The translations under genes were made by a program, and so were the position numbers. Of a DNA stretch of 64,000 bases, positions 6,962 through 64,000 are shown one piece after another (the stretch's first letter is position 1; each line of letters opens with the position of its first letter). The notes below the pieces were generated by a model that was not told where the DNA came from, made no database searches, and saw only the letters and a program-made list of their open reading frames with translations. Source of the stretch: Rhizobium sp. BK316 (GTDB lineage Bacteria > Pseudomonadota > Alphaproteobacteria > Rhizobiales > Rhizobiaceae); contig NZ_JACHZR010000001.1 of assembly GCF_014193695.1 (NCBI RefSeq), positions 595,309-659,308 on the forward strand. Direction: 5' to 3'.

Positions 6962-8082
6962 GGTGTGAGTTCATGCTGAACCGCGACTTTTGTGCTCATC
7001 AAGCTAACCGGCATTCCGCATCTGTGCGAGCAGTTTCTTGCGAAAGACTTCGGCCGGTGTTCGGTAGCCAAGGCATTTGCGGGGCGTCTCGTTGAGCCGG
7101 TTGCAGATGTTGATCAGATCAGCATCCGTGACCGACAATGGATCGACCTCTCTCGAAAGCCATTTCCGTACCCTGCCATTGGTATTCTCGACGGTGCCTT
7201 TCTGCCATGGCGATTGCGGGTCGCAGAATCAGGTTGGGTGCCAATGCTCGCCTGGAGATAAGGCCAATCCGTGAACTCCGTGCCACGGTCGAAGGTGATC
7301 GAGCGACGGGCGAGATGGGGTAGGGTCTTGAGGGCGTGTATGAGACCATCCATGACCGGGCGCGACTGACGGTCGTTGTTGCGCAGGAAGATCGCAAATC
7401 GACTAACGCGCTCGACGAGCGACGTCACGTTGGCCTTTCCGAACTTCTTGCGGAACTGGATCAGATCACATTCCCAGTGCCCAAACTGCTTGCGCGCAGC
7501 GACGGTGTCGGGGCGGCGCAGAATGTTCAGATCCGAGCTAAACCGTTGACCGTGCTTGCGTCTGGCATGTCTTGGTCTGCGCCTGGCACGACGCTCCGGC
7601 AAATGTCGCCACAGCTTGATCGCTTGGCCGTCAGCCGAATATGCGAACTTGTAGATCGTCTCATGGCTTACCGAGATTGGATGGTGCTCCAGGCGCATCC
7701 GCCCAGCAATTTGCTGCGGCGACCAGCCGTGTACGATCCGCTCGATTACCGATTGCCGGACATGTGAGAAGCGCGCGAGCTTCCGTAGCTTCGAACGACG
7801 ATCGCAAGCGGTCTGATGTGCCGTCACACAATAATAGCCGCTGAGATCAGGTATTTGCTTGTCGACAAACGTGTTGCGCCGGATCTCGCGGAAGATCGTC
7901 GAACGATGTCGTCCGAGTTTCTCTGCAATGGCGTCAACACTGAGCCCAGCTGACCTCCAACGGGCAATCTTACGGCGTTCGTCCAATCCAATCTGAGAGT
8001 AGGTGCGTCGCATTTCGCCTTCCTTGCGAGTGATAACCCATTGGGATCATTAGCAAGTCGCACTTCATCCTTGAACCCACCC
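6962..8082 (-). mobile_element. IS30-family insertion sequence, inactivated
   Basis: Imperfect terminal inverted repeats of about 28 bp flank the transposase. The left end GTTCATGCTGAACCGCGACTT (6969-6989) matches the inverted right end at 8055-8076 (read on the minus strand: GTTCAAGGATGAAGTGCGA...). The similarity continues a few bases outward on both sides. The length of about 1.1 kb is normal for IS30 elements. I see no convincing target duplication, so exact ends are approximate by a few bases. Confidence 0.65.
7004..8013 (-). pseudogene. IS30-family transposase, frameshifted
   Basis: The first 250 or so residues are normal: N-terminal HTH (GLSVDAIAEKLGRHRSTIFREI), then the DDE core with HWECDLI and FDRGTEFTDW carrying the two Asp. 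After Gly-Thr-Gln near 7255 the frame is lost. The expected continuation FCDPQSPWQKGTVENTNGR, containing the catalytic Glu, is present in another frame and runs to a TAG at 7004-7006. A one-base deletion plus a TGA where a Trp codon is expected both break the gene. As it stands the translated product is 299 residues with a scrambled tail and no catalytic Glu. Confidence 0.85.
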
Positions 8083-52014: not shown

Positions 52015-54057
<2,043 letters not shown>

Positions 54058-54069
54058 TGAATGTCGCAA

Positions 54070-55792: not shown

Positions 55793-55849
55793 TATGCATA
55801 TCGCTAATGCGATCCAGAGAATTGCCTATTTTGTATGCATTGGTATGCA
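55793..55849 (+). promoter_or_regulatory. Candidate enhancer sites upstream of the sigma-54 promoter
   Basis: TATGCA occurs at 55793, 55834 and 55844. The last two form the palindrome TGCAT-TGGT-ATGCA (55836-55849), which resembles the NtrC site core TGCAC...GTGCA. The position 65-120 bases upstream of the -24/-12 promoter suits an NtrC-type enhancer. The region is A/T-rich. The assignment is tentative. Confidence 0.4.
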
Positions 55850-55913
55850 CTTTTTCGATCATTGCCAATACACAGCATACGTCATCCTAGTAAAATCAAA
55901 CAGATGCACGACC

Positions 55914-55929
55914 TGGCATGACGCTTGCT
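55914..55929 (+). promoter_or_regulatory. Sigma-54 promoter of the guanidine operon
   Basis: TGGCATG-ACGC-TTGCT matches the RpoN consensus TGGCAYR-N4-TTGCW at every defined position. Transcription would start at about 55940, immediately before the riboswitch. This ties the operon to RpoN and, by usual rhizobial logic, to NtrC and nitrogen limitation. Confidence 0.8.
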
Positions 55930-55939
55930 TCGATAGAGG

Positions 55940-56055
55940 CAGAGTTGGTGGCTAGGGTTCCGGCGTTCTCGGAGAGCGCGGCTGGTCCGAGAGCCACCAC
56001 CGGCGGGGGAGAGATCCCGCCGGGTGCACGGCGGGACAAAAGCCCGGGAGACCTC
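55940..56055 (+). ncRNA. Guanidine-I riboswitch (ykkC type)
   Basis: The conserved blocks are in order: GCTAGGGTTCCG (55951-55962), GGCTGGTCCGAGAGCC (55980-55995) and ACGGCGGGACAAAAGCCC (56028-56045) followed by GGGAGA. A GC-rich hairpin (CCGGCGGG...CCCGCCGG) separates the halves. This is the guanidine-I aptamer (old name ykkC-yxkD). It precedes a transporter and a carboxylase, known members of the guanidine regulon. Ligand binding should prevent the terminator just downstream. Confidence 0.93.
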
Positions 56056-56062
56056 GTAAGCC

Positions 56063-56101
56063 AAGGGATTGGCGGCACGATGGTCATTGCCGATCCCTTT
56101 T
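56063..56101 (+). terminator. Riboswitch expression-platform terminator
   Basis: AAGGGATTGGC (56063-56073) pairs with GCCGATCCCTT (56089-56099) over 11 bp with one G-U pair, then TTTT before GAAG. A small competing hairpin GCCAA-GGGA-TTGGC (56060-56073) overlaps the 5' arm. Guanidine would be expected to disrupt this terminator and allow read-through. Confidence 0.8.
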
Positions 56102-56125
56102 GAAGAAAGCAAAAGGGGAATTTCA

Positions 56126-57199
56126 ATGCAGACTTTTTCGAAAATCCTTTCCATGACCGCGCTCTCTGTGTCGCTGGCTCTCGGGATCGGTTCCATCGCC
56201 AAGGCGGAGCAGAAGACAGAATTCAAGGTCGCCTGGTCCATCTATGTCGGCTGGATGCCTTGGGGCTATGCCGCCGACCACGGCATCGTCAAGAAATGGG
56301 CCGACAAATACGGCATCAAGATCGACGTTACGCAGTTCAACGATTATGTGGAGTCGATGAACCAGTACACGGCCGGCGCCTTCGATGCCGTGACCCTGAC
56401 AAATATGGACGGCCTCTCGATCCCCGCCGCCGGCGGCGTCGACACGACAGCGGTCATTGTCGGGGACTTCTCGAACGGCAATGATGCCGTCATTCTGAAA
56501 GACAAGGCCAGCCTCGCCGATCTCAAGGGCCAGAACGTCAACCTCGTCGAATTCTCCGTCTCGCACTATCTGCTGGCCCGTGCGCTCGAGAGCATCAAGC
56601 TGACGGAGCGTGACGTGAAGGTGGTCAACACCTCGGACGCCGACATGGTCGCCGCCTACAAGACGCCCGATGTCAGCGCCGTCGTCACCTGGAACCCGCT
56701 GGTTTCCACCATTCTCGAAGATCCCACGGCCAAGAAGGTTTTCGACAGCTCGCAGGTGCCGGGCGAGATCATCGACCTGATGGTCGCCAATACCGGCGTG
56801 CTGAAAGACAATCCGAATTTCGGCAAGGCGCTTGCCGGCATCTGGTATGAGACGGCGGCCCTTCTGAGGGCCGACACCGCCGAGGGCAAGGCGGCCCGCG
56901 AGGCCATGGGTTCGGCATCCGGCACCGATCGTGCCGGCTTCGAAGCCCAGCTCGCCGCCACCAAGCTCTTCGACAAGCCGGCTGATGCAGTTGCGTTCAC
57001 CGCCTCGCCGGGCTTGCCGAAGACCATGGACCTGGTCCGCGCCTTCCTCTTCGAAAAGGGTCTGCTCGGCAATGGCGCCCCGTCTGCCGATGTCATCGGC
57101 ATCGAAATGCCTGACGGCAAGGTGCTGGGCGATACGGGCAATGTGAAGCTGCGTTTCACCGAGACCTACATGAAGGCCGCCGCCGCCGGTTCGCTCTGA
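56126..57199 (+). CDS. ABC substrate-binding protein of the guanidine/urea-carboxylase type
   Basis: 357 residues from ATG 56126 (AAAAGGGGA upstream), with a signal peptide about residues 1-28 ending SIAKAEQKT. NMT1/taurine-type binding fold (KVAWSIYVGWMPWGYAADHGIVKKWADKYGIKIDV and EYxxAxDxxT-like VESMNQYTAGAFDAVTLTNMD). It is the first gene after the guanidine-I riboswitch, so the ligand is probably guanidine or a derivative, not urea as often annotated. A hairpin (57207-57231) follows its stop. Confidence 0.88.
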   Translation: MQTFSKILSMTALSVSLALGIGSIAKAEQKTEFKVAWSIYVGWMPWGYAADHGIVKKWADKYGIKIDVTQFNDYVESMNQYTAGAFDAVTLTNMDGLSIPAAGGVDTTAVIVGDFSNGNDAVILKDKASLADLKGQNVNLVEFSVSHYLLARALESIKLTERDVKVVNTSDADMVAAYKTPDVSAVVTWNPLVSTILEDPTAKKVFDSSQVPGEIIDLMVANTGVLKDNPNFGKALAGIWYETAALLRADTAEGKAAREAMGSASGTDRAGFEAQLAATKLFDKPADAVAFTASPGLPKTMDLVRAFLFEKGLLGNGAPSADVIGIEMPDGKVLGDTGNVKLRFTETYMKAAAAGSL

Positions 57200-57206
57200 T
57201 CGCAAC

Positions 57207-57231
57207 GGAGGCGCAGCCTACCCGCGCCTTC
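57207..57231 (+). repeat. Intercistronic stem-loop after the guanidine binding-protein gene
   Basis: GGAGGCGC (57207-57214) and GCGCCTTC (57224-57231) form an 8-bp stem with one G-U pair and a 9-base loop, with CTCC following. It is the fourth binding-protein gene in the window followed by such a hairpin. Confidence 0.5.
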
Positions 57232-57257
57232 CCTCCTTCACCAGCGGAGCATTTCCC

Positions 57258-58076
57258 ATGCGTTGGATCAACACGAGGCCGAGCCGGGGCGCACAGTTCG
57301 CCTTGATGATGCTGCCCTTCGTGCTGCTCGTCGTCGCCTATGCGTTCGGTTCGGCCGCGCGACTGGCGGAAAACACCAATGACAAGCTTCTGCCAAGCCT
57401 TGCTGGCTTTGCCGATGCGATCAACCGCCTGGTTTTCGTTGCCGACCAGCGCACAGGCGAATATCTGCTCTGGTCGGATACAGGAGCAAGTCTGATCCGG
57501 CTGCTCTCCGGCCTCGGGATCTCCACTGCAATTGCGCTCGTCGTCGGCATGCTGATCGGCATGCTGCCCTATCTGAGAGCGCTGCTTTCCCCTTTCGTTG
57601 CCGTCATCTCTATGGTGCCGCCTCTCGCGCTCCTGCCGATCCTCTTCATCGTCATGGGGCTCGGCGAAACCTCGAAAATTGCCCTCATCGTCATCGGCGT
57701 CGCGCCGACGATGATCCGCGACCTGGCACTGAAGGCGCTGGAGCTGCCCCGCGAACAGATCGTCAAGGCCGAGACGCTCGGCGGCTCCTCATGGCAGATC
57801 GGCCTGCGTGTCGTGCTGCCCCAGATCCTGCCGCGGCTGATCACATGCCTCAGATTGCAGCTCGGCCCGGCATGGCTGTTTCTGATCGCGGCGGAAGCGA
57901 TCTCCTCGGATTCCGGCCTCGGCTACCGCATCTTCCTCGTCCGCCGCTATCTCTCGATGGATATCATCTTTCCCTATGTGGTCTGGATCACCCTGCTTGC
58001 CGTTGTGATGAATTATCTGCTCGACCGCCTGCGCATCGCCGTCTTCCCCTGGTCGGAACTGGAGAGGCAGGCATGA
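57258..58076 (+). CDS. ABC transporter permease (taurine/nitrate type) of the guanidine operon
   Basis: 272 residues with about six membrane helices. The cytoplasmic EAA-type loop is MIRDLALKALELPREQIVKAETLGGSSWQIGLRVVLPQ. Its last codons overlap the ATPase start (ATGA). Type similar to SsuC/TauC permeases. It forms the channel for the binding protein at 56126. Confidence 0.9.
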   Translation: MRWINTRPSRGAQFALMMLPFVLLVVAYAFGSAARLAENTNDKLLPSLAGFADAINRLVFVADQRTGEYLLWSDTGASLIRLLSGLGISTAIALVVGMLIGMLPYLRALLSPFVAVISMVPPLALLPILFIVMGLGETSKIALIVIGVAPTMIRDLALKALELPREQIVKAETLGGSSWQIGLRVVLPQILPRLITCLRLQLGPAWLFLIAAEAISSDSGLGYRIFLVRRYLSMDIIFPYVVWITLLAVVMNYLLDRLRIAVFPWSELERQA

Positions 58077-58897
58077 GTGAACTCAGGGTCGAACGGGTCT
58101 GGAAGGAATATGGCGACCAGATCGTGCTCGAGGACGTTTCGCTGACCGTCGATGCACGCGCTTTCGTCGCGCTGGTCGGCCCCTCCGGCTGCGGCAAGTC
58201 CACATTTCTGCGCATGCTGCTTGGTCAGGAACGGCCGACGAAGGGCAAGATCCTGCTCGACGGTGAGCCGCTGCCACCGGAACCGGGGCCAGATCGTGGA
58301 GTCGTCTTCCAGCGCTATTCCGTCTTCCCGCACCTGACCGTGCTCGGCAATGTGCTGCTCGGCAAGGAATTGACCGCCGCACGCTACAGGGCGAGGCTCT
58401 TCGGTGCAGCCCGCCGCAACGCGTTGGAAGACGCGCGCCGGCTGATTGCCGAGGTCGGTCTCGCCGGTTCCGAAGGCAAATATCCGGCCCAGCTTTCAGG
58501 AGGCATGCAGCAGCGCCTTGCGCTGGCCCAGGCGCTGATCATGAAGCCGAAGGTGCTGCTGCTCGACGAGCCCTTCGGTGCGCTCGATCCCGGTATCCGC
58601 GCCGAGATCCACATGTTGATGAAACGGCTCTGGCACGAGACGCAGATGACCGTCGTCATGGTCACGCACGACATGCGCGAAGCCTTCACCCTTGCGAGCC
58701 GAGTCGTCGCCTTCGAACGCCGCCGCGACCGGCCGGAGGAGAAGGAGCGTTACGGCGCCACCATCACCAAGGACATTTCCATCTGGCCGCCGCGCCTTGC
58801 CGGCCAGTCATCAATCTTCAGCCCCGACCGGGACGGCCCGGTCGCTTCCCTGGGGCACGGCCGGGACGACCTGGCACCATCAGGAGAGATGCTATGA
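58073..58897 (+). CDS. ABC transporter ATP-binding protein of the guanidine operon
   Basis: 274 residues from the ATG at 58073, which overlaps the permease stop; upstream open frame is another frame of the permease gene. Walker A GPSGCGKST, signature LSGGMQQR, Walker B VLLLDEPFG and MVTHDM are all present, as in TauB/SsuB-type ATPases. It overlaps the next gene ATG by 4 bases, so the operon continues without gap into the DUF1989 pair. Confidence 0.92.
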   Translation: MSELRVERVWKEYGDQIVLEDVSLTVDARAFVALVGPSGCGKSTFLRMLLGQERPTKGKILLDGEPLPPEPGPDRGVVFQRYSVFPHLTVLGNVLLGKELTAARYRARLFGAARRNALEDARRLIAEVGLAGSEGKYPAQLSGGMQQRLALAQALIMKPKVLLLDEPFGALDPGIRAEIHMLMKRLWHETQMTVVMVTHDMREAFTLASRVVAFERRRDRPEEKERYGATITKDISIWPPRLAGQSSIFSPDRDGPVASLGHGRDDLAPSGEML

Positions 58898-59715
58898 TGC
58901 ATATGAGACGCTCGCCCGAAGAGATCGCCGCCAACCGCGCGCGCTATGAGGAGCATCAGAAGAAGGGTTTGGAATTCGCCCCCAAGGCGCTACCCGGCCC
59001 GAGCCCACTGCCGGCGCCGGCCATCGATGCCTCGACCATCGTCCATCAGGAGACCATCCCGGGCGGCTGGTACTGGTCGACGAAGCTCTTACGTGGCGAG
59101 GCGATCCGCATCGATCAGGCCGAGGGCAATTCCACCGTGGCGCTCGTCGCCTGGAACGCGGCCGACACCAGCGAGCGCATTAATCTGGTCGATACCGCCA
59201 AGGTCCAGTGGACGACGGCGCTCGGCAAGGGGCGTGTGATCTTCTCTGACATGGGTCGCGTCATGTTCTCGATGATCGAGGACAGTTCCGGTGCCCATGA
59301 CTGCCTGATGGGTGGCTCGACGGCCGCCTCGAATGCAGACAAATATCCCGGCGAGAAGACGCGCAATACCCGTGACAACTTCGTCCTCGTCGCCGGCAAG
59401 CTCGGCCTCGACCGCCGCGACATACCCGGCATCCTCAATCTCTTCGCACCCGTTCGCCTCGCCGAGGCCGGTGGCTTCGGCTGGCAGAAGAAGCTCTCCA
59501 ACAGCGGTGACTATGTGGAGCTGCGTGCGGAAATGGACATGCTGGTCGGCTTTTCCAATTGCCCGCATCCGCTCGATCCCGATCCGGCCTATCAGCCGAA
59601 GCCGATCGTCGTCACGCGCTACAAGGCCGCAGTCCCGGCCGTGGACGATCTTTGCCGGACGGCGACCGCCGAAGCTGTGCGCGGTTTCGAAAACAACGCC
59701 CTGATGCGGGCCTGA
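58894..59715 (+). CDS. DUF1989 protein, urea-carboxylase-associated protein 2 (carboxyguanidine deiminase subunit)
   Basis: 273 residues. DUF1989 barrel from about residue 50 (TIPGGWYWSTKLLRGEAIRID) with the metal-region segments SSGAHDCLMGG and NCPHPLDPD. This is the longer of the two partners. In guanidine operons the pair has been shown to act as carboxyguanidine deiminase, turning carboxyguanidine into allophanate. It overlaps the ATPase stop. Which CgdA/CgdB label applies is not decided here. Confidence 0.88.
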   Translation: MMHMRRSPEEIAANRARYEEHQKKGLEFAPKALPGPSPLPAPAIDASTIVHQETIPGGWYWSTKLLRGEAIRIDQAEGNSTVALVAWNAADTSERINLVDTAKVQWTTALGKGRVIFSDMGRVMFSMIEDSSGAHDCLMGGSTAASNADKYPGEKTRNTRDNFVLVAGKLGLDRRDIPGILNLFAPVRLAEAGGFGWQKKLSNSGDYVELRAEMDMLVGFSNCPHPLDPDPAYQPKPIVVTRYKAAVPAVDDLCRTATAEAVRGFENNALMRA

Positions 59716-59725
59716 GGATACAACG

Positions 59726-60376
59726 ATGACCGATTTCATCCAGACCTCTCCTGCGCGCACCGTGGAAAATGCCGCGCAGGATCACTTCATTCCGGCAGAA
59801 GCCCCGTGGTCCGGCATCGTGCGCATGGGTCAGACGATCCGCATCGAGGACAGTTACGGCCAGCAGGCTATCGACACGCTCTTCTATCGTGCCGATGATT
59901 TCTCCGAGCGCTATTCCAACCAGGATACGATGCGTATGCAGGGTGCCGCCTATGTCGGCATCGGCACGAAGATCATGTCGAACGAAGGCAATGTCATGCT
60001 CACCATGACGGCAGACAGCTGCGGCCGCCATGACACGTCGGCCGGCGCCTGCTCCTGCGAGAGCAATACGGTGCGCTTCGGTCATGGCACGAAATATCTG
60101 CATGCCTGCCGCGACAACTTCGTCCTCGAAGTCAGCAAACATGGCATGGGCAAGCGCGACATCGTGCCGAACATCAATTTCTTCATGAACGTGCCGATCA
60201 AGCCGAATGGCGAGATGACGATCGTCGACGGAATCTCCGCGCCAGGCGATTATGTGGAACTCGTCGCCGAGATGGACGTGCTCTGCGTCATCTCCAACTG
60301 CCCGCAGATCAACAACCCGTGCAACGGCTTCGATCCAACGCCGATCAGGGTGCTGATCTGGGATGGCGAGGACTGA
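59726..60376 (+). CDS. DUF1989 protein, urea-carboxylase-associated protein 1 (carboxyguanidine deiminase subunit)
   Basis: 216 residues, the shorter DUF1989 partner. Conserved Cys/His clusters are DSCGRHDTSAGACSCESN and HACRDNF, and the C-terminal SNCPQINNPCNGFDPTPI is typical. It starts 10 bases after its partner and ends 2 bases before the carboxylase. Expected to work as a heteromer with the protein at 58894. Confidence 0.88.
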   Translation: MTDFIQTSPARTVENAAQDHFIPAEAPWSGIVRMGQTIRIEDSYGQQAIDTLFYRADDFSERYSNQDTMRMQGAAYVGIGTKIMSNEGNVMLTMTADSCGRHDTSAGACSCESNTVRFGHGTKYLHACRDNFVLEVSKHGMGKRDIVPNINFFMNVPIKPNGEMTIVDGISAPGDYVELVAEMDVLCVISNCPQINNPCNGFDPTPIRVLIWDGED

Positions 60377-60378
60377 GG

Positions 60379-63300
60379 ATGTTCAAGAAAGTCCTGATCG
60401 CCAACCGGGGCGAAATCGCCATCCGGGTCATCAAGACCTTGAGGAAGATGGGCATCGCCTCCGTCGCCGTCTATTCCGATGCCGACCGCTTTGCCAAGCC
60501 TGCCATGATGGCCGATGAAGCTGTCCGCCTCGGCCCGGCGCCGGCCAGCGAAAGCTATCTCAACGTCGATGCCGTCATCGCCGCCTGCAAGGCGACCGGT
60601 GCCGAGGCGGTGCATCCCGGCTACGGCTTCCTGTCGGAAAATATCGGCTTTGCCGAACGCCTCGCCGCCGAAGGCATCGCTTTCATCGGCCCGCGACCCG
60701 AGCATCTCTCAGCCTTCGGACTCAAGCACACGGCCCGCGAACTCGCCAAGGCAAGCGGCGTGCCGCTCCTGCCTGGCACCGGCCTGCTCTCGAGCGCCGA
60801 CGAAGCACTCTTTGCTGCAGAGACGATGGGCTATCCCGTCATGCTGAAAAGCACGGCCGGCGGCGGCGGCATCGGTATGCAGCTCTGCGGTGATCCGGAA
60901 AGCCTCAAGGCCTCGTTCGAAAGCGTGCAGCGCACCGCACGGGCGAGCTTCGGTGATGCGCGTGTCTATATCGAACGTTTTGTAGCCGAAGCCCGCCATG
61001 TTGAAGTGCAGATCTTCGGCGACGGGAAAGGCACGGTCATCGCGCTCGGCGAGCGCGACTGCTCGCTGCAGCGGCGGAACCAAAAGGTGGTCGAGGAGAC
61101 CCCTGCCCCCGGTCTTTCCGCAGCAAGCCGCGCTCGCCTGGACAAGGCAGCCGTCGATCTCGGTTCGGCGGTCTCCTACGAATCCGCCGGCACCGTCGAA
61201 TTCATTTACGACCCCGTGCGCGAGGAATTCTATTTCCTTGAGGTCAACACCCGCCTGCAGGTCGAGCATCCGGTAACGGAAGCCGTCTTCGGCATAGATC
61301 TCGTTGAATGGATGATCCGCCAAGCGGCGGGCGAAGACGTGCTCTCCGGCGCAGAGCCCCTGCAGCCGCAGGGTGCGGCGATCGAGGTGCGTGTCTATGC
61401 GGAGATGCCGCATGCAGATTTCCGCCCAAGCGCAGGGCTGCTGACGGAGGTGTCATTCCCTGATGATGCACGTATCGACGGTTGGGTCGAGACCGGCACG
61501 GAGGTGACGCCTTTCTACGATCCAATGCTCGCCAAGATCATCGTTTCTGCGGAGGATCGCCCAGCAGCGATCGAGAAGCTGAAGGCCGCGCTTTCGGGCA
61601 CATCGATATCGGGCATCGAAACCAATCTGGATTACCTCCGCGCCATCGCCAGTTCGGATCTACTCGCCAGCGGCAAGGTGGCGACGACGGCGCTGCGTGA
61701 CTTTTCCTTCGTACCCGATGTCATCGAGGTGCTTGCGCCGGGCGCGCAGTCGAGTATCCAGGAGCTGCCGGGCCGGCTTGGCCTGTGGCATGTCGGCGTG
61801 CCGCCGAGCGGCCCGATGGACGAGCGCTCGTTCCGCCATGCCAACCGCCTCGTCGGCAACGGTGATATGGTTGCGGCGCTGGAACTGACGGTTTCCGGTC
61901 CGGTGCTGAAATTTCATACCGATACGGTGGTTGCGCTCGCCGGTGCCAGGATGGCGATAAGCGTTGATGGCGCGAAATTGCCGCATGGCGAAGCCGTGAC
62001 TATCCGCGCCGGCCAGATCCTCTCGATCGGCAGCATCGATGGGCCGGGGCAGCGGGCCTATCTGGCCGTGGCAGGCGGTTTTGCCGCTCCCGTCGTGCTC
62101 GGTTCACGCGCCACCTTCGGCCTCGGCCAGTTCGGGGGCAACGCTACCGGTACGTTAAAGACCGGCCATGTGCTGCATCTTGCCAGAGAGGCCGCTGTCG
62201 GGCCGCCGAAACCGGCGACGGAGCCGGCAGAATTGACCCGCGAATGGGATGTCGGCGTTGTCTATGGCCCGCATGGCGCTCCCGATTTCTTTGAGGACGG
62301 CGATATCGAGACGCTGTTTTCGACGAATTACGAAGTGCATTTCAACAGCGCCCGCACTGGTGTGCGCCTGATCGGCCCGGCGCCGAAATGGGCGCGCAGC
62401 GATGGTGGTGAGGCGGGTCTTCATCCCTCAAATCTGCATGACAACGCCTATGCCATCGGCGCGATCGATTTTACCGGCGACATGCCGATCATCCTCGGTC
62501 CGGACGGACCGAGCCTCGGCGGATTCGTCTGCCCTGCGGTGATCGCCCGCGACGAGCAGTGGAAGATGGGGCAGTTTAAACCGGGCGACCGCATCCGCTT
62601 CCACCCCGTTTCACGTTCTGAGGATCCGATCGCCGGCCCGGCGGTGCATCGGGTGACGGAAGAAGCGGGCTCGCCGATCGTCGGCCACCGTGACGATGGA
62701 CCTGTCTCCGTCGTCTACCGCCGGCAGGGTGACGATAACCTGCTGGTCGAGTATGGGCCGATGACGCTCGATATCGCTCTGCGGCTCAGGGTTCATCTCC
62801 TGATGCAGGCTCTATCGAAAGCGCGTCTGCCAGGGATTATCGATCTCACGCCTGGCATCCGCTCGCTGCAGATTCACTATGACGGTACGAATTTGACCCG
62901 CAAGCGCCTGCTTGGCTTGCTCGCCGAGATCGAGGCAGGCCTGCCGGCAGCCCAGGACGTCAAAGTGCCGAGCCGCATCGTGCATCTGCCGCTGTCCTGG
63001 AACGATCCGGACGCGGAACTTGCCATGCGCAAGTATCAAGAGCTCGTTCGGCCGAACGCGCCATGGTGCCCGTCCAATATCGAGTTCATCCGCCGCATCA
63101 ATGGCCTGGCGGATGAACAGGCGGTGCGCGACGTCGTCTTTGACGCCAGCTATCTCGTGCTCGGCCTCGGCGATGTCTATCTCGGCGCGCCGGTCGCCAC
63201 TCCGATCGATCCGCGCCATCGGCTGGTAACGACCAAATATAATCCGGCCCGCACATGGACACCGGAAAATGCCGTCGGTATCGGCGGTGCCTATATGTGC

Positions 63301-63918
63301 ATCTATGGCATGGAAGGCCCTGGCGGTTACCAGCTCTTCGGCCGCACCATCCAGATGTGGAATACGTGGCGGCAGACGCCGGTATTCGCCAAGGACAAGC
63401 CGTGGCTGCTCGATTTCTTCGATCAGATCCGCTTCTTCCCGGTCAGCCACCCGGAATTGGCGGAAGCCCGCAGCGCCTTCCCGCATGGCGGCTACCCCGT
63501 CACGATCGAGGAAACGGAATTCTCCTATGCCGCCTATGAGAGAGAACTCCGGGCGAATGCCGCCTCGATCGGCCGCTTCAAGGCAAGACAGCAGGCGGCC
63601 TTCGATGCCGAGCGCCTGCGTTGGAAGGAGGCGGGCCTCGACAGCTTCGTCGCTGACGAAGGCGCAGGGGAAAGCCTGGACGGGGATATTCCCGAGGGAT
63701 GCTTCGGCGTTGCCAGCGCCGTACCCGGCAATATCTGGAAACTGCTGGTCGAGCCGGGCGTACCGGTCGCGGCCGGCGACACGCTTGCCATCATCGAATC
63801 CATGAAAATGGAAATCAACGTCACCGCACATGCGCCGGGCCGTGTCCGCGACCTGCGCGCCGGCCCCGGACGAAACGTCAAAGCGGGCGATATCATTGTT
63901 GTTCTGGAGGAATGCTGA
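60379..63918 (+). CDS. Biotin-dependent guanidine/urea carboxylase
   Basis: 1179 residues from ATG 60379 (GAGGACTGAGG upstream). Biotin carboxylase domain about 1-450 (KSTAGGGGIGMQ ATP loop; EVNTRLQVEHPVTE catalytic block). Carboxyltransferase part: KipA/AHS2-type region from about 455 (GLWHVGVPPSGPMDERSFRHAN) then KipI/AHS1-type from about 775. Biotinyl domain at the end with Lys1143 in IESMKMEIN. It carboxylates guanidine, by operon evidence, or urea. The sequence alone does not separate the two activities, but the riboswitch and DUF1989 pair favour guanidine. Confidence 0.93.
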   Translation: MFKKVLIANRGEIAIRVIKTLRKMGIASVAVYSDADRFAKPAMMADEAVRLGPAPASESYLNVDAVIAACKATGAEAVHPGYGFLSENIGFAERLAAEGIAFIGPRPEHLSAFGLKHTARELAKASGVPLLPGTGLLSSADEALFAAETMGYPVMLKSTAGGGGIGMQLCGDPESLKASFESVQRTARASFGDARVYIERFVAEARHVEVQIFGDGKGTVIALGERDCSLQRRNQKVVEETPAPGLSAASRARLDKAAVDLGSAVSYESAGTVEFIYDPVREEFYFLEVNTRLQVEHPVTEAVFGIDLVEWMIRQAAGEDVLSGAEPLQPQGAAIEVRVYAEMPHADFRPSAGLLTEVSFPDDARIDGWVETGTEVTPFYDPMLAKIIVSAEDRPAAIEKLKAALSGTSISGIETNLDYLRAIASSDLLASGKVATTALRDFSFVPDVIEVLAPGAQSSIQELPGRLGLWHVGVPPSGPMDERSFRHANRLVGNGDMVAALELTVSGPVLKFHTDTVVALAGARMAISVDGAKLPHGEAVTIRAGQILSIGSIDGPGQRAYLAVAGGFAAPVVLGSRATFGLGQFGGNATGTLKTGHVLHLAREAAVGPPKPATEPAELTREWDVGVVYGPHGAPDFFEDGDIETLFSTNYEVHFNSARTGVRLIGPAPKWARSDGGEAGLHPSNLHDNAYAIGAIDFTGDMPIILGPDGPSLGGFVCPAVIARDEQWKMGQFKPGDRIRFHPVSRSEDPIAGPAVHRVTEEAGSPIVGHRDDGPVSVVYRRQGDDNLLVEYGPMTLDIALRLRVHLLMQALSKARLPGIIDLTPGIRSLQIHYDGTNLTRKRLLGLLAEIEAGLPAAQDVKVPSRIVHLPLSWNDPDAELAMRKYQELVRPNAPWCPSNIEFIRRINGLADEQAVRDVVFDASYLVLGLGDVYLGAPVATPIDPRHRLVTTKYNPARTWTPENAVGIGGAYMCIYGMEGPGGYQLFGRTIQMWNTWRQTPVFAKDKPWLLDFFDQIRFFPVSHPELAEARSAFPHGGYPVTIEETEFSYAAYERELRANAASIGRFKARQQAAFDAERLRWKEAGLDSFVADEGAGESLDGDIPEGCFGVASAVPGNIWKLLVEPGVPVAAGDTLAIIESMKMEINVTAHAPGRVRDLRAGPGRNVKAGDIIVVLEEC

Positions 63919-63921
63919 CCT

Positions 63922-64000
63922 ATGCTGCCGACCATTCTTGATCTGACAAGCCTTCGCGCAGCCTATGAGGCGGGCACAACCCCGCGCGATGTCATCGAGA
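63922..64000 (+). CDS. atzF: Allophanate hydrolase, 5' end only
   Basis: 26 residues are in the window (MLPTILDLTSLRAAYEAGTTPRDVIE), matching the N-terminus of AtzF/DUR1,2-type allophanate hydrolases, which break allophanate to ammonia and CO2. It begins 3 bases after the carboxylase stop with GGAGG upstream. Completion lies outside the window, so integrity cannot be judged. Confidence 0.75.
   Translation, partial: MLPTILDLTSLRAAYEAGTTPRDVIE

Follow-up and report, generated by a model that had tools for sequence, protein, structure and literature searches.

Operons for the assimilation of guanidine that contain two guanidine riboswitches have been reported in Vreelandella boliviensis (PMC12508155) and in enterobacteria (PMC12186494). 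According to the parts of these papers that were consulted, a guanidine-I aptamer is located in the leader and a guanidine-II aptamer inside the operon, the latter in the non-coding gap between cgdB (carboxyguanidine deiminase subunit) and gca (guanidine carboxylase), before gca. In-line probing showed guanidine binding by both V. boliviensis aptamers (Sinn et al. 2025, PMC12508155). The present analysis concerns an operon with the same pathway genes and a guanidine-I leader in Rhizobium sp. BK316 (contig NZ_JACHZR010000001.1, positions 595,309–659,308; this whole stretch of 64,000 nucleotides is referred to as the window). In this operon, in contrast to those described, guanidine-II forms part of the coding sequence of the importer ATPase, at the boundary with cgdA. 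As in the guanidine-II (mini-ykkC) class generally, a pair of ACGR hairpins is joined by a linker that contains a putative anti-Shine-Dalgarno sequence (PMC9094411, in the parts consulted); the element differs from the class in being translated, as the final part of the gene preceding its presumed target.

Nitrogen control of such genes is known in the form of predictions: sigma-54 sites were predicted at COG3665 genes (PMC12316311) and NtrC sites at the allophanate hydrolase gene atzF in Rhizobiales (PMC5343134). The consulted parts of these two studies contain nothing on a transcript that opens with a riboswitch; guanidine is unmentioned in the main text of PMC12316311, and no sigma factor is named in the main text of the V. 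boliviensis paper (PMC12508155). The arrangement can also be compared with tandem riboswitches (PMC9481103, in the parts consulted), in which two sensors read one ligand at two steps, as in the S-adenosylmethionine pairs called bi-mechanism. Unlike tandem riboswitches, the two sensors of this operon are 2.9 kb apart with three genes between them, and they are not both upstream of the same frame. In the consulted parts of the 2022 review (PMC9481103), no tandem arrangement is given with any of the four guanidine classes. Among the literature matches listed, none joins sigma-54 with a guanidine riboswitch and none describes guanidine-II inside the ATPase gene; a prior mention of either in subscription papers is possible. 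Guanidine-I together with an internal guanidine-II is already known from the sources consulted, and three-tier control with a translated riboswitch would be new relative to the known cases.

With a probability of about 0.7, we assume that the window contains a guanidine-assimilation operon under three serial controls. When nitrogen is short, the sigma-54 polymerase at 55914–55929 would be driven by an activator, most probably phosphorylated NtrC bound to a TGC-N11-GCA box, and transcription would begin just 5′ of the guanidine-I aptamer. If guanidine is absent, a helix (C) would form from the 3′ end of the aptamer, block a second helix (A) and let a third one (B) mask the Shine-Dalgarno (SD) sequence of the first importer gene. 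Guanidine, by holding the 3′ end of the aptamer, would lead to the loss of C, the formation of A and the opening of B, so that the first importer gene would be translated (an ON switch). Next, the linker of guanidine-II would mask the cgdA start until guanidine makes the two hairpin loops kiss, after which cgdA, and perhaps later genes, would be translated; this step was proposed for the class and is applied here by analogy. Ribosomes finishing the ATPase gene would have to melt the guanidine-II aptamer, and the overlap of the ATPase stop with the cgdA start means that enzyme synthesis may be tied to translation of the importer as well. Comparison with related loci lends good support to a shared role of sigma-54 and guanidine-I in control, and to guanidine as the substrate of the pathway.

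An initial annotation had described the operon as an AND gate of nitrogen starvation and guanidine and had overlooked guanidine-II at 58825–58874. Since this second guanidine sensor lies inside the operon, control is, judging by the sequence, three-tiered. The operon, found in a genus that has good strains for laboratory work, offers a testable case of such logic, with nitrogen status read at the promoter and guanidine at two RNA steps, and it raises the question of how a riboswitch works while ribosomes run through it.

Predicted sigma-54 promoter and guanidine-I leader

The region upstream of the leader contains the following elements:

55823–55839, plus strand: exact TGC-N11-GCA palindrome TGCCTATTTTGTATGCA, candidate NtrC enhancer, −91 from the −24 element
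55914–55929, plus strand: sigma-54 −24/−12 element TGGCATGACGCTTGCT, the sole match to TGGCAYRN4TTGCW on both strands of the window

The −24/−12 element has the GG-N10-GC arrangement with TGGCA and TTGC, and it ends 11 nt before the guanidine-I aptamer. The classic −24 sequence is TGGCAC, relative to which TGGCATGACGCTTGCT has T for C. By the usual rule, the start of sigma-54 transcription is placed by the position of the promoter GC; the GC at 55927–55928 would put it near 55940, one base 5′ of the aptamer match.

To evaluate conservation, 80 related loci, mostly from Rhizobiaceae, were used, and the leader was present in 79 of them (the contig of L059 ends before the leader). The pattern TGGCA[CT]-N5-TTGC was found in all 79 loci at a fixed place, namely 38 (25 loci), 39 (52 loci) or 40 (2 loci) nt before the aptamer box TAGGGTTCCG. 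The elements comprised 57 distinct 16-mers, and 96 such patterns were present in total in 2,619,100 strand-bases. A point against the promoter is that the strict motif showed no enrichment genome-wide (8 sites vs. 7 in the reversed control); the element is therefore credible because of its fixed place in the relatives and not because of the motif alone. The initial annotation had reported this RpoN element and a guanidine-I aptamer right after the expected start, and both were borne out.

Two broader samples were also searched, 289 genomes of the window's class and 378 genomes of its phylum, with riboswitch matches accepted at E up to 0.001. Besides the genome of the window (G000), 18 of the 21 class genomes with guanidine-I were examined, the weak matches G160 and G082 being left out. 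A sigma-54 element with GG and GC intact and no more than one mismatch over its twelve positions was found in 12 of the 18; G242 and G225 have TTGA for TTGC, and the element is missing in four (G266, G169 and G042, which belong to one family, and G124). Six loci of the phylum sample that belong to the same order or are closer still were fetched: five match the element at 11 or 12 of the 12 positions, and the sixth, L154, shows no −24/−12 element beside the aptamer box on its correct strand. Scores of 11 or 12 at no more than 75 nt from the box were also obtained outside the class for 5 of the 22 fetched loci (L132, L138, L142, L144 and L151); four of these five sigma-54-like elements are located 67–75 nt from the box, compared with about 39 nt in rhizobia. 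Members of family f44 (L113, L115 and L117) contain both riboswitches and no sigma-54 element, and a TGTATACA or TGCATACA stretch is located directly 5′ of their aptamers. In L113, the permease gene directly follows guanidine-I, with no binding-protein gene between them; the 1.9 kb spacing suggests that this gene is also missing at this place in L115 and L117.

The centre of the palindrome TGCCTATTTTGTATGCA lies at about −109 from the inferred start. Of 80 upstream regions (the window and 79 loci), 33 have an exact TGC-N11-GCA at −130 to −60 from the −24 element; a stretch of the same length further upstream has it in 3 of 79, and shuffled sequences gave 1.15 on average (maximum 4). When one mismatch was allowed, these values were 73/80, 34/79 and 21.7 (shuffle mean), respectively. 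The pattern GCnYA-N5-TRnGC clusters near −90, a few copies being located about one helical turn further upstream, and its chance figures are flattering, as it was derived from the same sequences. Counts of palindromes in general were elevated upstream of the promoter for most gaps, none of which stood out.

The leader downstream of the promoter contains the following elements:

55941–56052, plus strand: guanidine-I riboswitch aptamer (RF00442), 91.8 bits, E 2.9e-15
56050–56085, plus strand: helix C, GACCUCGU/ACGA-U-GGUC around GCCAA/UUGGC, its first three bases shared with the 3′ end of the aptamer match
56063–56099, plus strand: helix A, AAGGGAUUGGC/GCCGAUCCCUU, −19.8 kcal/mol in the window
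56095–56117, plus strand: helix B, CCCUUUUG/CAAAAGGG, masking the SD sequence at 56113–56118

The RF00442 match spans model positions 1–107 of 107 (gathering threshold 63), and no second match was found in the genome. The three mutually exclusive helices are kept in the relatives, formation of A excluding both B and C. In an alignment of 48 distinct leaders (47 loci and the window, duplicates removed), 99.7%, 99.8% and 94.8% of cells were paired for C, A and B, respectively, and 13 cells of helix B showed two-sided changes, a number reached in 0 of 500 shuffles. In all 48 leaders, the SD sequence was paired when the part downstream of the aptamer was folded to minimum energy. Six of them (L066, L070, L074, L076, L078 and L080) have a T-run of three or fewer after helix A, and helix B was still predicted for these six, at −6.3 to −11.2 kcal/mol.

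Several observations weigh against this reading of promoter and leader. The NtrC-like box is exact in just 33 of the 80 regions, it was first seen by eye in these sequences and matched to the published motif afterwards, and scans upstream of amtB and the glutamine synthetase genes of this genome did not yield a sigma-54/NtrC comparison that could be used. Neither helix A nor helix C showed two-sided changes in the 48 leaders; 11 of the 13 two-sided cells of helix B are at an end pair that depends on the alignment, and helix B slid by one column still pairs 95.2% of cells with 6 two-sided cells.

The limited number of exact boxes leaves room for an enhancer-binding protein other than NtrC as the activator, and in Sinorhizobium meliloti targets were known for three of seven predicted sigma-54 activators (PMC3616915, in the part consulted). 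We consider such a protein unlikely, since TGC-N11-GCA near −109 corresponds to the rhizobial motif that was tied to NtrC in S. meliloti by mobility shift and footprinting and was named for glnII too (PMC10746234, in the part consulted), atzF is a predicted NtrC target in Rhizobiales, and a motif scan of the fetched stretches of the 80 loci revealed no sigma-54 activator gene. NtrC thus remains the probable activator. A different question is posed by helix A, which the initial annotation took for an intrinsic terminator disrupted by guanidine, so that guanidine-I would switch transcription. This is the usual mode of guanidine-I (PMC12186494, in the part consulted), helix A is strong in the 48 leaders (−16.8 to −21.5 kcal/mol) and a run of 4 to 7 T follows it in 42 of them. 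The hairpin at 56063–56099 does exist, but the consensus terminator scan did not report it, UUUUG directly follows it in the window, and it overlaps the hairpin that masks the SD sequence. Moreover, helix A begins 10 nt past the aptamer match, and only C among the helices tested overlaps the aptamer. Loss of C favours A. With A as a terminator, guanidine would thereby shut the operon down, the opposite of what induction requires. A transcription switch is therefore regarded as doubtful, and gating of the translation of the first importer gene by guanidine-I is more likely, also because the SD sequence is paired in all 48 leaders and the T-run is three or shorter in six of them. Some termination at helix A is possible. 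The AND gate of the initial annotation is sound in outline, but guanidine as the signal to finish transcription is not the best reading.

Predicted guanidine-II riboswitch within the ATPase gene

Two elements were distinguished at the end of the ATPase gene:

58825–58875, plus strand: guanidine-II riboswitch (RF01068 match at 58825–58874, 40.4 bits, gathering threshold 32), consisting of P1 (58825–58844), a linker and P2 (58860–58875), with loops ACGG and ACGA
58845–58853, plus strand: candidate anti-SD sequence CUUCCCUGG in the P1–P2 linker, complementary to the cgdA SD sequence at 58882–58886 (−7.4 kcal/mol)

No second RF01068 match was found in the genome. The riboswitch is located directly before cgdA and within the ATPase gene, whose end at 58897 overlaps the start of cgdA. 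Both hairpin loops were found in 78 of 81 operons (80 loci and the window). P1 is translated in 77 of these 78, and both P1 and P2 in 63; the stop codon lies before or in P2 in 14, and the ATPase of L064 ends upstream of the aptamer. A stricter hairpin rule gave guanidine-II in 76 of the 80 loci. When eight loci were re-scanned with Rfam, four scored above gathering; the others were the doubtful L034, L035, L068 and L079.

The alignment of the riboswitch comprised 59 distinct rows; duplicates, the three loci without a loop pair (L035, L068 and L079), L118 and L129 were left out. The stems P1 and P2 contained 26 cells with two-sided changes over 8 pairs (0/500 shuffles), the outermost P1 pair failed in 26 of the 59 rows, and the loop bases A-C-G were invariant. 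The mean major-base frequency at third codon positions rose from 0.734 upstream (33 columns) to 0.931 in P1 (7 columns). The pairing of linkers with their own SD sequences was estimated for 54 distinct pairs (duplicates, L035, L068 and L079 left out): the mean energy was −6.02 kcal/mol (range −0.1 to −11.8), compared with −5.46 kcal/mol for permuted partners, none of 2000 permutations being as low, and −4.69 kcal/mol for shuffled linkers. This statistic is weaker than it appears, as the rows are related.

The aptamer was also found within the ATPase frame in nine loci outside the 80-locus set (L111–L118 and L129; families f41, f42, f44 and f53), and Rfam confirmed guanidine-II in seven of the eight of these that were scanned, L118 falling short. 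Three of them, which belong to one genus (L111, L114 and L129), use a different reading phase (GGT) from that of the rhizobia (RDGP) and of L116 and L118 (RDDP). In L172, guanidine-II is located outside the ATPase frame. The aptamer-constrained coding sequence, read in another frame in one other genus, makes this a clear example of a sensor shaping the end of a protein.

Several loci depart from this arrangement. In Rhizobium phaseoli JHI366 (L035, about positions 7920–8000), the guanidine-II linker and P2 are missing, a single hairpin is left and the ATPase frame is kept, which provides a natural comparison for the role of guanidine-II. Neorhizobium alkalisoli and Brucella endophytica (L068 and L079) have kept the sigma-54 element and guanidine-I, with no guanidine-II upstream of cgdA.

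The proposed function of this sensor also faces objections. The element is dispensable, since L035, L068 and L079 have it broken or not at all and that of L034 misses the Rfam cut-off. In some loci, the pairing between the linker and the SD sequence of the same operon is weak (−0.1 kcal/mol in L062 and −2.2 kcal/mol in L064). An ensemble calculation on 57 distinct sequences, which left out several sequences where the stricter loop rule gave one loop only, did not show release of the cgdA SD sequence by P1 and P2: the mean unpaired fraction was 0.25 with P1 and P2 enforced, 0.30 when folding was free and 0.35 with the P2 loop region melted. In addition, frequent melting may leave a translated aptamer unable to regulate.

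An alternative view is that the RF01068 match reflects a relic, or arose by coincidence from the coding sequence, and plays no regulatory role in this lineage: translation may keep the aptamer unfolded, the loop pair is missing in 3 of the 81 operons, in one of them through an in-frame loss, and the test for SD release was negative. Such a view is hard to reconcile with 26 two-sided changes over 8 pairs, the invariant loop bases, the constraint on third codon positions that appears on entering P1, the fact that loci of several families pass the Rfam gathering threshold, and the different reading phase in one genus, and we regard it as quite improbable. A further-reaching functional reading can be put forward tentatively, at less than even odds. 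Guanidine-II would be a translated riboswitch that codes for the end of one gene, controls the next one and reads both guanidine and the density of ATPase translation. Three conditions would then have to coincide for the enzymes to be made: nitrogen hunger, guanidine at the first sensor, and guanidine at the second one during the intervals between ribosomes that complete the importer gene.

Pathway genes and distribution of the riboswitch pair

The plus strand from 56126 contains genes for an importer, two DUF1989 proteins, a biotin carboxylase and an allophanate hydrolase (ABC, ATP-binding cassette):

56126–57199, plus strand: importer substrate-binding protein (TIGR03427, 551.3 bits)
57258–58076, plus strand: ABC permease (PF00528)
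58073–58897, plus strand: ABC ATPase, its final codons forming the guanidine-II aptamer; the stop TGA overlaps the cgdA start (ATGA)
58894–59715, plus strand: cgdA, carboxyguanidine deiminase subunit (DUF1989, UAAP1; TIGR03425, 296.6 bits; PF09347)
59726–60376, plus strand: cgdB, carboxyguanidine deiminase subunit (DUF1989, UAAP2; TIGR03424, 334.2 bits; PF09347)
60376–63918, plus strand: gca, guanidine carboxylase (TIGR02712, a urea carboxylase family model, 1804 bits)
63922–64000, plus strand: start of atzF, allophanate hydrolase (601 aa), which ends at about 65727, beyond the window (L130, 731–2536)

The TIGR and PF matches agree with the order of genes given in the initial annotation, from the binding protein to the carboxylase. 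Its assignment of an allophanate hydrolase to the end of the operon was correct too, although the window contains just 79 bases of this gene, the rest being seen beyond it in L130. The same seven genes are present in two annotated relatives, whose ATPase and cgdA coding sequences are likewise annotated with a 4-base overlap. Rhizobium johnstonii 3841 has the operon on pRL9.

The carboxylase in the window contains AIDFTGD; in the alignment, its Asp takes the place of Asn in the solved urea amidolyase of Kluyveromyces lactis. This Asp was kept in all 80 related loci (79 with AIDFTG and 1 with SIDFTG). According to the part consulted of a 2025 review (PMC12186494), Asp is characteristic of guanidine carboxylases and Asn of urea carboxylases, and guanidine is therefore the likely substrate. 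The operon thus has what the guanidine carboxylase pathway calls for, namely cgdA, cgdB, an allophanate hydrolase gene and a carboxylase whose substrate site has Asp, and the interpretation as a guanidine pathway, made earlier without database searches, is well supported. Several of the seven genes bear 'urea' names in the two relatives, which cover what reads as the uptake and use of guanidine.

In the class sample, guanidine-I was found in 21 genomes, guanidine-II in 28, and both on one strand within 3 kb in 9; the corresponding numbers in the phylum sample were 39, 79 and, within 8 kb, 25. The spacing of the two riboswitches was 1.9–3.0 kb in the window's class, with the exception of G627 (L172, 4.9 kb), and mostly 4.2–4.8 kb outside it. 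Nine loci from outside the class were read (L173–L181), and guanidine-II was located directly before the carboxylase start in each of them, likewise in the cgdB–gca gap. The upstream DUF1989 frame ends before guanidine-II in eight of the nine; in L173 this frame was untagged.

The genome that holds the window (G000) is 6.36 Mb long, and its closest relatives in the named collection are Rhizobium and Rhizobiales isolates. The window also contains a thiamine pyrophosphate riboswitch (RF00059, 69.4 bits) at 53934–54065 on the minus strand, before a thiC-like gene, which is an ordinary arrangement.

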